A stretch of 51,555 nucleotides of DNA, from assembly GCA_018268395.1 (NCBI GenBank), contig JAFDWQ010000007.1:1-51555 (forward strand), given 5' to 3'. The translations under genes and the position numbers were made by a program. Positions 18,922 through 29,800 of the stretch are shown piece by piece (position 1 is the stretch's first letter; each line of letters opens with the position of its first letter). The DNA comes from Armatimonadota bacterium. Lineage in GTDB: Bacteria > Armatimonadota > Fimbriimonadia > Fimbriimonadales > Fimbriimonadaceae. A model generated the notes under the pieces. It was not told the origin of the DNA and made no database searches. It was given only the letters and a program-made list of their open reading frames with translations.

Positions 18922-19620
18922 GTGCGCGCCCCGCTCCTCCTCGCTTATTGGTCGTTAGCCGCGACAGCGCGAGCCACGGTCTACGATTTGACCACGGACT
19001 GGGTCGACCAAAATCCCAACGGGTCTTGGAGCCTTCAACGTTAGAACCTAGGTCTTGCCGAGTCCTTCACCGTCGATGCGGCGTTCGAGACCACATGGTC
19101 GCATCCGCAGACGGTCTGGGGCGAAGGCGGCAACGCTGATTTCGTCTACAAGTACAACGGTTTTGGAGACGTCGGGGACTGGGTCGAAGGCGACATCGTC
19201 TACAACTCTGGTTTCGAAGGCCGCTCCAATACGTCGTTTCGCTTTACGGCCCCGGTCTCGGACTTCGCCGACCTCAGAGGCACCGCATGGATCGTGAGTC
19301 AGGCGCAAGGGCTTTACCAGGAGTTCAAAGTCCTGCACAACGGAGTCGAACTGACCAGCGTCATCACCGATGCGGACAGGGACCACCAGACGTCGGTCGC
19401 CGACGGAACGGGTGGCGCGTCGGTGCTCTCGGGCATTTCGGTGGCCGCCAGCGACACGTTCGACATCGCGGGCGGAATAGGACGGTCCTTCCGGAGGTCG
19501 GGCCTGACGTTCTCGGTCGAGCTTGTCCCAGAACCGTCGAGCATGGCCCTGTTCGGCTTAGTGACGGCGGGGATCGCCGCGCGCCGGAAAGCCGCGAGGC
19601 CAGAACGGGTCTGTGGATAG
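18922..19620 (+). pseudogene. PEP-CTERM protein gene with in-frame TAG
   Basis: The frame starting at GTG 18922 (5 bases after TACACT) encodes a signal-like leader, then DLTTDWVDQNPNGSWSLQR followed by TAG at 19042-19044. The same frame continues without interruption for about 190 codons and ends in a PEP-CTERM sorting signal: VPEPSSM, a hydrophobic helix (ALFGLVTAGIAA) and an arginine-rich tail. PEP-CTERM proteins are exported and processed by exosortase/archaeosortase-type enzymes. The premature stop is a single-codon change with no frameshift, so it is either a recent nonsense mutation, a sequencing error or a read-through site. Confidence 0.8.
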
Positions 19621-26226: not shown

Positions 26227-27630
26227 ATGCAGTCGGCGTGGAAGGTCGGGCTCTTCGTGGTCGTCTTCGTGGGCCTCCTCCTCGGAGCGTACGCCGTGCT
26301 CGAAAAGAACCTTTTCGCCAAGCCGACAGAACGCTATTTCGCCGACTTTGCGGACGCCGGAGGCGTCGCAACGGGCTCGGCCGTGTTCCTTTCCGGCGTC
26401 CAGGTCGGCCAGGTCAAGGACGTCCGGCTGCTCGGGCCGAAGCAAGCCCGCTTGACGTTCGACCTCGACAAAGGCACACAGATCCCGGCCGGAAGCACGG
26501 CCCAAGTCCCGATGTCGTTCATCTCTATCGGTGACACGCGGGTGTTCATCGTCCCTCCGGAGAAGGTCGACGGATATCTCCAGCCTGAGGCGGTTCTGGC
26601 GGGCCGGCTCGGTTCGCCGCTCGAGGGACTCGCCCCCGAAGCCGGCAAAACCTTGGAAGAGCTGAACAAGACGATGGTCGCGGTGCAAGGACTGCTCGAG
26701 GACAAATCCCTTAAGCACGACCTTCATGCCCTGATGAACTCGGTGACGGAAACATCGACCAAGTTCGGCGGGGTGGCGGACCGGATCGACGGCCTGATCG
26801 CTTCGAACGAAGGCCGGTTCAAAGGGCTCCTGACGTCGACGGCGGGAACCCTGGAGAACATGCGGCTCGTGAGCCTTGAACTCCAGAAGTTTGCGGCCAG
26901 TGGCCAGCTTCAAGACAAGACGACGGCCCTGCTCGACAACTTGAACGAGACCGTCAAGAAGGGGAACGCGCTCGTCGGAGACCTCCAGTCGTTCGTCAAC
27001 GACCCCGACCTCCGAGGTTCGTTGAAGGGAACGATGGAGAACGTCAAGGTCATGAGCGAATCGGGCCCCCGTATCGCGGCCGATGCTGAAGTCATGGCCA
27101 AGAACGGGGTCGAGATCACCGCCGAGACCAAGGAGCTGATGAAAAAGGCGAACAAGCTCGCCGACCAGGTCCAGGAGATGATCGAGAAGTTCAACGGCAC
27201 GATCGACAAGATCGGACAGGGAGGAAAGAGTTTCGCGAGCGGGTTGGAGTACGAGGCGACGCTCACCCAAGAATCCTCGCCCGGCCGACTCCGCGCCGAT
27301 GCGAACGTCTTCATCCCGATCGGAAAGGACAAGGTCATGATCGGCCTTTTCGACGCCTTCGAGTCCAACAAGATCAATTTTCAGATGGTCAAGAGCTTCG
27401 GCCCGAACCTGGGCCTTCGGTACGGGGCGTACGCCAGCAAGCCGGGTCTTGGGGTAGATTATTCGCTCGCGCCGAGGCTAGGCCTTCGCGGGGACGTGTT
27501 CGGACTGAACGACCCCCGCTTCGACCTTCGCCTCAACTATCAGGTCGGCCCTGGCGCATACGGTTGGGTAGGCCTGAACAAGATTTTCGAGCGGAACTCG
27601 CCGTCGGTCGGCGTGACGATCCGCAAGTAA
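26227..27630 (+). CDS. MlaD-like MCE protein with C-terminal beta domain
   Basis: A 467-residue lipid-transport protein. Residues 6-24 form a membrane anchor. About 35-110 is one MCE domain (YFADFADAGGVATGSAVFLSG, VGQVKDVRL, ISIGDTRVFIVPP). About 125-335 is long helical, coiled-coil-like sequence. From residue 339 the protein changes to about ten alternating hydrophobic strands (RLRADANVFIPIG, KVMIGLFDAF, LGLRYGAYASKPGLGVDY, LGLRGDVFGLND, RFDLRLNYQVG), like an outer-membrane barrel. It could therefore span the periplasm alone. ATG at 26227 lies 6 bases after TAGAAT. MlaE/MlaF genes are not adjacent; rplI follows by 15 bases. Confidence 0.9.
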   Translation: MQSAWKVGLFVVVFVGLLLGAYAVLEKNLFAKPTERYFADFADAGGVATGSAVFLSGVQVGQVKDVRLLGPKQARLTFDLDKGTQIPAGSTAQVPMSFISIGDTRVFIVPPEKVDGYLQPEAVLAGRLGSPLEGLAPEAGKTLEELNKTMVAVQGLLEDKSLKHDLHALMNSVTETSTKFGGVADRIDGLIASNEGRFKGLLTSTAGTLENMRLVSLELQKFAASGQLQDKTTALLDNLNETVKKGNALVGDLQSFVNDPDLRGSLKGTMENVKVMSESGPRIAADAEVMAKNGVEITAETKELMKKANKLADQVQEMIEKFNGTIDKIGQGGKSFASGLEYEATLTQESSPGRLRADANVFIPIGKDKVMIGLFDAFESNKINFQMVKSFGPNLGLRYGAYASKPGLGVDYSLAPRLGLRGDVFGLNDPRFDLRLNYQVGPGAYGWVGLNKIFERNSPSVGVTIRK

Positions 27631-27645
27631 GCGAGGAATTCGGGA

Positions 27646-28206
27646 ATGAAGGTCATCCTAAAGCAATCGGTGCCGAAAGTCGGCAAGGAAGGGCAGGTCG
27701 TGAACGTCAAGAACGGTTTTGCCCGCAACTACCTCTTTCCGCAAGGGATGGCGATCGTGGCCGACAAGAAGCAGCTCGGCGTCTTGACCCGGCGCAACGC
27801 CAAGATCGAGGCCAAGTTGGCCGAGACCAAGAGCGAAGCCGACACCATGCGCGAAAAGCTCCACGGTCAGGTGCTCAACATCGAAGGCCACGTCGGGAAG
27901 GACACGGGCAAGCTCTTCGGGGCCGTCACGTCCCAGGACATCGCCGACGCGATCAAGTCCCAGTTCGGAGTCGATCTGGACAAGAGGATCGTCCTCTTGA
28001 GCCAGCCGATCAAGCAACTCGGCAACCACACCGTCGACATCGACGTCCACCGTCAGGTCGACATCCGCATGACCGTCCGTGTGTTCGACCCTGAACTCGT
28101 CGCTGCGGAAGCCAAGAAGGCGGCGGAACGCAAGGTCATCCAAGCCGCCCCGGCCGAGACCGTTGAAAAGGTCGAAGAGTCGGAAGGCGAAGCCGTCGAA
28201 GCTTGA
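27646..28206 (+). CDS. rplI: 50S ribosomal protein L9
   Basis: A 186-residue L9. The N-terminal rRNA-binding domain (MKVILKQSVPKVGKEGQVV, VKNGFARNYLFPQGMA), connecting helix and C-terminal domain (KLFGAVTSQDIADAI) are typical. It is longer than the usual 148-150 residues because of an acidic Ala/Glu-rich tail. A GAGGAA ribosome site precedes ATG. It is unusually placed behind an MCE gene rather than with rpsF-ssb-rpsR. Confidence 0.96.
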   Translation: MKVILKQSVPKVGKEGQVVNVKNGFARNYLFPQGMAIVADKKQLGVLTRRNAKIEAKLAETKSEADTMREKLHGQVLNIEGHVGKDTGKLFGAVTSQDIADAIKSQFGVDLDKRIVLLSQPIKQLGNHTVDIDVHRQVDIRMTVRVFDPELVAAEAKKAAERKVIQAAPAETVEKVEESEGEAVEA

Positions 28207-28210
28207 CGCC

Positions 28211-29800
28211 TCAGCGGCCCATCGCCATCTTTCCGATGTCGAGGGTCACGACGCCGATCACGAGCACCATCACGAGGAACGCCCCGATGGTGCTCAATTG
28301 CATTTGAAGCTTCAGACTGAGGCGACGGCCGCCTCGTAGGAGTTCGGCGAACGCCACCATCATCTGTCCGCCGTCAAAAGGCACGATCGGCAAGAGGTTC
28401 ATGACGCCGAGCGAGACGCTCAACATCGCGGCGACCATGAAGACGGCGGGCGGGCCGGCTTTTCCAGCGTTTCCGATTTCACGGGCGATCGACGCAGGGC
28501 CACCGATGTTTTCGGCCAGCGTCTGGGGTTTCGAAACCGACTCGGCCAAACCTGCGACCAGGAGGACCGGGTACTTCACGGCGGCGTCAAACGCCTCGAC
28601 CGGTGCCAACGGCTTATGGTCGAAGACCGGCGACATCTGCAGTTTCGCCTGGATCTTCTTTTCCGACGATGGTTTGTTGTCCTCTTGGAGCACCGGACTC
28701 GGCGCCTTGTCGACCACGGGCGTCACGTTCGCGAACAGGGTCTTGCCGTCCCGTTCGTAGGTCAGGCGTACAGGTACCGGCTCGTAGCGCCCGTCCTTTT
28801 CAGTAAAGCTGACACGGACGGTCTTGACGAGGTCGTAGAACGTCGCGACGGGTTTTCCGTTCGCTTCCAGGATCTTGTCCCCGGGTTTCAAGCCGGCCTT
28901 TGCTCCGGGCCCGTCGGCCGTGAGCGACCCGATCACCGGCGTCGTCCTCGGCACCAGTTCACCGTTGATCGCCAGGACCACGGCGAGCAACAAGACCCCG
29001 AAGGCGATGCTGAAGAACGGTCCAGCGAACAGGACGGCCAGTCTCGCCAACGGGGGTTTGCTATAGAAGCCGCCTTCGATCTCGGTCTCGCTGCCGTCTT
29101 CCTTCGGGTGCATGCCACGGATCGCGGCGAATCCGCCGAGAGGAAGGCACAACAGGGAGAACTCGGTCCCATGCTTGTCCGTACGGCTCAAGAGCGGCCG
29201 GAAGAGGACCGGGCGCTTCTCAGGGCCCATCGGTCCGTCCACAAAGATCTGTCCTTGGCCGTGCTTCTCCTCTTCACCCTTGTGCAACACCGGATGGTAA
29301 TAGACGAAGAGGAGGCCGATGACGGCGAAGATCGCGAGGAGGCCCACCGTCTGAAGCGGGCCCATACCCTTGCCTCCCGTCCCGACGAAACTCAGGACGA
29401 CGGCGACCAACCAAGCTTTGGCGACCGTTCCGACCGTCGACGCCAGAGGAAGACGGTAGACGTTTCCCAATCGCGTCGCGATCCAGACCGGCAACACGGC
29501 TCCGAGAACGGCAAGGGAAGCGTAAGCGCCGATCAAGTTCTGGGCCGACATCGCCCAGGCCAGGCTCACCCCGGCAACGGTTCCGACCGCGGCCAGGATC
29601 CACGGACTGGCCATCGGTTTGGCCCCGAGTTCGGACGGTCGCGTCTTGCGGATCCCGCCCATCATCACGGCGAACGCATCGACGTGCATCCCGCATGCCC
29701 GTGCCACCCAAAAGTGTCCGAGTTCATGGACGGCGACAAGGATAGGGAGGATCGCAACGATCAGCAAAGCAGTGAGAAGCGTCTCGATCAAGGGGCCCAT
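28211..29800 (-). CDS. rseP: RseP-like site-2 protease with enlarged membrane region
   Basis: A 529-residue intramembrane M50 metalloprotease that cleaves membrane-bound regulators. Zinc site HELGH at residues 25-29; third ligand region NLLPIVPFDGGQ near the C-terminus; a PDZ domain (VIGSLTADGPGAKAGLKPGDKILEANGKPV) lies between. Between HELGH and PDZ there are about 130 extra residues with three or four additional hydrophobic helices, making it longer than typical RseP. ATG at 29800 is 11 bases after TAGAAT, an element that overlaps the end of dxr, so it may be expressed both with dxr and alone. Confidence 0.92.
   Translation of the reverse strand: MGPLIETLLTALLIVAILPILVAVHELGHFWVARACGMHVDAFAVMMGGIRKTRPSELGAKPMASPWILAAVGTVAGVSLAWAMSAQNLIGAYASLAVLGAVLPVWIATRLGNVYRLPLASTVGTVAKAWLVAVVLSFVGTGGKGMGPLQTVGLLAIFAVIGLLFVYYHPVLHKGEEEKHGQGQIFVDGPMGPEKRPVLFRPLLSRTDKHGTEFSLLCLPLGGFAAIRGMHPKEDGSETEIEGGFYSKPPLARLAVLFAGPFFSIAFGVLLLAVVLAINGELVPRTTPVIGSLTADGPGAKAGLKPGDKILEANGKPVATFYDLVKTVRVSFTEKDGRYEPVPVRLTYERDGKTLFANVTPVVDKAPSPVLQEDNKPSSEKKIQAKLQMSPVFDHKPLAPVEAFDAAVKYPVLLVAGLAESVSKPQTLAENIGGPASIAREIGNAGKAGPPAVFMVAAMLSVSLGVMNLLPIVPFDGGQMMVAFAELLRGGRRLSLKLQMQLSTIGAFLVMVLVIGVVTLDIGKMAMGR

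Follow-up and report, generated by a model that had tools for sequence, protein, structure and literature searches.

A single-MCE protein of Armatimonadota with the predicted architecture of a trans-envelope, barrel-ended MlaD

The stretch of DNA analyzed here (51,555 nucleotides; the window), from a Fimbriimonadaceae bacterium of the phylum Armatimonadota, encodes a protein in which an N-terminal membrane helix is followed by one MCE domain, a long helical region, and ten predicted C-terminal strands. With a probability of about 0.83, we assign this protein to the long, barrel-ended type of MlaD, as a subunit of a three-part lipid transporter together with MlaE and MlaF. The host genome encodes an MlaE permease and an MlaF candidate and lacks MlaC and MlaA; together with the domain order and the barrel model, this complement of partners supports an earlier reading of the same DNA as encoding an MlaD-like trans-envelope protein (the original prediction). 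We posit that the N-terminal helix holds MlaD in the inner membrane next to MlaE, with the ATPase MlaF driving the transporter, and that probably six MlaD copies would assemble an MCE ring surmounted by a helical tube, the far end of which would be anchored in the outer membrane by the C-terminal ten-strand barrels. Lipids, most likely phospholipids, could then travel between the membranes along the hydrophobic tube, and since a single protein would provide the conduit, neither MlaC as a shuttle nor MlaA, the lipoprotein of the outer membrane, would be needed. In this scheme, we infer the MlaD hexamer, the spanning of the envelope, insertion into the outer membrane, the cargo, and the direction of transport from known systems.

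The open reading frame starts with ATG, has a GTG immediately 5′ of this start, and contains no internal stops; its parts are listed in Table 1. The only segment above the hydropathy cut (19-residue window, KD>1.6) spans residues 1-30, the maximum elsewhere being 1.05. Pfam detects the MCE domain with an E value of 3.5e-13, and a whole-genome profile search places it at 26326-26556. A full-length AlphaFold2 model from two input sequences is of low confidence (pLDDT 41) and was used for its secondary structure alone, which comprises the N-terminal helix, the MCE strands, the helical region, and the ten C-terminal strands at the residues given in the table. Hydropathy, Pfam, and this model agree with the anchor, single MCE domain, and about 200 helical residues first read from the sequence, and the strands, then put at about ten from residue 339, number ten in the model and begin at residue 341. 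The spacing between the MCE domain and the barrel is 220-240 residues across Fimbriimonadales, the order of the host, and 190-387 residues in Armatimonadota elsewhere, which is compatible with a length dictated by the periplasm.

Table 1. Features of the mlaD-like locus in the window (residues numbered from the ATG)
Feature	Position	Strand	Basis
mlaD-like gene, single-MCE protein of 467 aa, predicted trans-envelope	26227..27630	+	uninterrupted ORF, homologues, Pfam
N-terminal inner-membrane helix, residues 4-29	26236..26313	+	secondary structure of model, hydropathy
MCE/MlaD domain PF02470, residues 34-108	26326..26550	+	Pfam
Helical region, presumed periplasmic tube, residues 137-331 (~195 residues)	26635..27219	+	full-length model
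Ten amphipathic strands, predicted outer-membrane barrel, residues 341-466	27247..27624	+	models, alternation in homologues
Last strand and C-terminus: invariant Gly462, hydrophobic 465, basic end without aromatic	27598..27627	+	homologue alignment
rplI (ribosomal protein L9), downstream neighbor of mlaD, outside the transporter	27646..28206	+	conserved gene order

The C-terminal part was also folded alone. Residues 331-467, paired in a two-row alignment with a Fimbriimonadaceae (Armatimonadota) relative found by contig search (locus L033), gave ten strands with a pLDDT of 69.9 and a pTM of 0.61, only one of five models having converged. As foreseen in the original prediction, the C-terminal 137 residues are thus modeled as a ten-strand barrel, and the solved structures nearest to the model are outer-membrane barrels: Legionella porin I is the best match (Z 16.1), followed by OpcA (Z 15.8; rmsd 1.9 Å over 124 residues), with the omptins Pla and OmpT at Z 11.5-14.2 and the designed ten-strand TMB10 at Z 12.7. 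Independently of the model, the hydrophobic alternation of the ten strands scores 4.98 across 168 homologues (shuffles, 2.02 ± 0.47; p≤0.0002). On one face of the strands, large hydrophobic residues account for 69% and charged residues for 5%; on the opposite face, charged residues reach 36% and Gly 17%. Entropy in the strands is 2.26 on the polar and 2.61 on the hydrophobic face, a difference that is not significant by itself, and the MCE domain of the same proteins, which serves as a soluble control, shows the opposite pattern (hydrophobic 1.46, polar 2.45). A conserved polar face combined with a variable hydrophobic one would be expected from a lipid-facing exterior around a polar lumen. 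Covariation favors neighboring antiparallel strands over other pairs (p 0.002), most clearly strands 3-4 and 7-8; closure of strand 1 onto strand 10 gives no covariation signal (rank 32/36), and closure of the barrel therefore relies on the model. Comparison of the domain with Pfam and PDB sequences returned no significant match. On the strength of the model and of these strand patterns, we predict that the domain is a ten-strand outer-membrane barrel.

The extreme C-terminus bears on the same question. In the usual outer-membrane signal, a glycine and an aromatic or hydrophobic residue stand at places matching Gly462 and position 465. Gly462 is invariant across the 168 proteins, and 154 of them have I, Y, L, V, F, or W at position 465; counted from the end of the window protein, the departure from the usual signal is confined to the last residue, Lys467. 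The original prediction had treated this lysine as a caution, which dissolves in the alignment: 121/168 homologues (about 72%) end in R or K, and 18/168 in an aromatic residue. Because BamA and a second putative outer-membrane protein from the same genome both end in F, the basic end is a trait of the MlaD family, not of the organism. The terminal lysine as an argument against family membership is accordingly ruled out, K/R ends being the rule in this family.

The host assembly (3.72 Mb) is 99.76% complete, and gene absences in it therefore carry weight. It encodes BamA, LpxC, LptF/G, and LptB (above the curated cut-off), so the host is a diderm that synthesizes lipid A; an LptD profile found no match in the genome and likewise failed to detect one of the controls, Synechococcus elongatus. 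The genome contains one MCE domain and one MlaE permease (E 9e-75; TIGR00056 above cut-off). The candidate for MlaF was singled out with a profile built from MlaF proteins adjoining mlaD in other Armatimonadota: among the twelve best ABC ATPases it comes first with 328 bits, the runner-up having 201, and it lies below the NCBIfam MlaF cut-off. This MlaF-type ATPase gene (L089:1447-2310) is solitary, away from mlaE and mlaD, and has a gene for a 155-residue protein directly downstream. Profile searches of the host genome for MlaC and MlaA found neither. The genome complement is hence the one originally anticipated, with MlaE and an MlaF candidate present and MlaC absent, and the complete mlaA/mlaC set that would have spoken against that reading is not in this genome. 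The one-cluster arrangement, usual but not defining, is missing: the host mlaD, mlaE, and mlaF genes are on three different contigs, and their pairing consequently rests on relatives.

In Armatimonadota outside Fimbriimonadales, mlaF is mostly, and mlaE usually, a neighbor of mlaD. In a set of 30 loci, 29 of which come from outside Fimbriimonadales, mlaF lies no more than 1.5 kb from the MCE domain in 27, an MlaE-like reading frame is found near mlaD in 24/30, a count in which the flank may cut the MlaE frame, and the MlaE and MCE coordinates are close together in most genomes outside Fimbriimonadales. rplI adjoins mlaD in 50/51 Fimbriimonadales loci and lies downstream of it in 20 of the set of 30, and mlaE and mlaF adjoin mlaD in just two Fimbriimonadales loci (L043 and L051). 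The simplest reading is that the four genes once formed an mlaE-mlaF-mlaD-rplI cluster and that the first two were relocated in most Fimbriimonadales; we place the split within this order because two of its loci retain the cluster.

These observations have to be set against other readings of the protein. The C-terminal domain could stay in the periplasm as a soluble, lipid-binding barrel or sheet of ten strands, resembling nitrobindin or a lipocalin; MlaD would then stop before the outer membrane, and another partner would finish the route. Nitrobindin-like barrels do match the model (Z about 10-11), covariation is silent on closure, and the terminal aromatic is missing. We nevertheless consider a soluble domain quite unlikely: several outer-membrane barrels score clearly higher (Z 12.7-16.1), the average conservation of the polar face, which carries Gly and charge, is at least equal to that of the hydrophobic face, the opposite of the MCE control, and the domain sits at the C-terminus, with the invariant glycine and, in most of the 168 proteins, a hydrophobic residue positioned as in the outer-membrane signal.

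A bridge that does reach the outer membrane might still carry another lipid or act largely apart from MlaEF. This fits the unlinked mlaD, mlaE, and mlaF genes of the host and the location of mlaE and mlaF away from mlaD in nearly all Fimbriimonadales; moreover, mycobacterial MCE proteins transport other lipids, such as cholesterol. It is opposed by the parallel distribution of MlaE (273/291 Armatimonadota genomes) and MCE proteins (270/291), both almost always in single copy, and by the gene order, which is best read as a cluster split within the order, and we regard it as unlikely. A narrower proposal for Fimbriimonadales, that a barrel-ended MlaD has been genetically uncoupled from MlaEF and carries a variant C-terminal assembly signal (an invariant Gly, a hydrophobic residue at -3, and a basic last residue), is, taken jointly with its consequence, distinctly doubtful; if it were true, insertion or regulation of this protein may differ from that of other outer-membrane proteins, or it may work partly without the ABC transporter. 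That a classical six-part Mla system is present, with MlaA and MlaC too diverged for detection, we judge very improbable. Profiles can miss very distant relatives, and the LptD profile found nothing here, but MlaC is found in 0/194 good Armatimonadota genomes, MlaA is absent from the host genome, a classical MlaD has no barrel, and diderm Terrabacteria are reported to lack MlaABC (PMC10665443). The phylum yields a single MlaC-like match (G211:C350:36720-36920, locus L088), which scores 22.2 bits, with the cut-off at 26, and comes from a genome that is 80% complete and outside the 194.

The barrel-ended MlaD is best placed beside its studied counterpart. In Veillonella parvula, MlaD comprises a TM helix, an MCE domain, a helical part, and a C-terminal ten-strand barrel, and fractionation showed its two ends reaching the two membranes (Grasekamp et al. 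2023; PMC10665443). According to the same survey, a barrel-ended MlaD occurs widely among diderm Terrabacteria, where MlaABC is absent; it declares all phyla covered, and Armatimonadota are unnamed in its main text (PMC10665443). The window protein resembles V. parvula MlaD by architecture, with a TM helix, one MCE domain, a long helical region, and a predicted ten-strand barrel, and its host resembles V. parvula in having MlaE and an MlaF candidate, in lacking MlaA and MlaC, and in belonging to a diderm Terrabacteria lineage. The two proteins differ in length (467 vs 419 residues) and in the helical part (about 195 vs about 150 residues), and the host mla genes are dispersed, whereas V. parvula keeps them in an mlaEFD operon followed by tolC and tamB. 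With Escherichia coli, the window protein and its host share an MlaD with a TM helix and MCE domain, an MlaE permease, and an MlaF-like ATPase; E. coli MlaD, however, has 183 residues, no long tube or barrel, and the partners MlaC and MlaA within a six-part MlaFEDB-MlaC-MlaA system, both of which the host lacks, and the window protein matches the E. coli-type MlaD family (NCBIfam TIGR04430) with a score under the cut-off. Mycobacterial Mce1 and E. coli PqiB and LetB likewise have one or more MCE rings followed by a helical or stacked tube toward the outer membrane, and the window protein gives profile matches to families of these types, but Mce1 is a heterohexamer and PqiB and LetB have several stacked MCE domains. 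To our knowledge, none of the three has a ten-strand barrel ending each chain. The window MlaD thus shows each defining trait examined of the barrel-ended type: a TM helix with an MCE domain, a helical part, a predicted barrel, MlaE and an MlaF candidate in the genome, and no MlaC or MlaA.

A one-protein lipid bridge is already known from Veillonella, and the Armatimonadota example is in itself ordinary but phylum-wide; what stands out is its uniformity across the phylum, the dispersed genes, and the basic C-terminus. Full-length homologues occur in 54/60 relatives' genomes (55/61 with the window's own). The model of the C-terminal domain is matched by 169 of 170 MCE proteins extracted from Armatimonadota and complete in 168; two of these 170 loci are duplicates, L084 being a copy of L051 and L180 apparently a copy of L033. 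A scan of viral contigs for further MlaD relatives found none, and a search of plasmids for barrel-bearing MCE proteins from other phyla returned MCE and helical matches only. Barrel-ended MlaD thereby reaches beyond the one firmicute in which it has been studied, as a uniform trait, present in single copy, of some 270 Armatimonadota genomes without MlaC, a pattern that fits the proposal of a three-part bridge as the older form of Mla. With mlaD in single copy and without paralogues, the phylum offers a clean test of whether one protein replaces MlaA and MlaC.

Three observations concern the surroundings of the gene. The adjacency of rplI and mlaD has been kept although their products have no obvious functional link. 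Convergent to rplI, and not seen beside mlaD in relatives, is a gene (28211-29800) for an RseP-type M50 site-2 protease of 529 aa, which scores above the cut-off of TIGR00054 (model of 421 positions). Elsewhere in the window, a small open reading frame at 19294-19620 ends in a PEP-CTERM-like tail (PEPSSMALFGLVTAGIAARRK).
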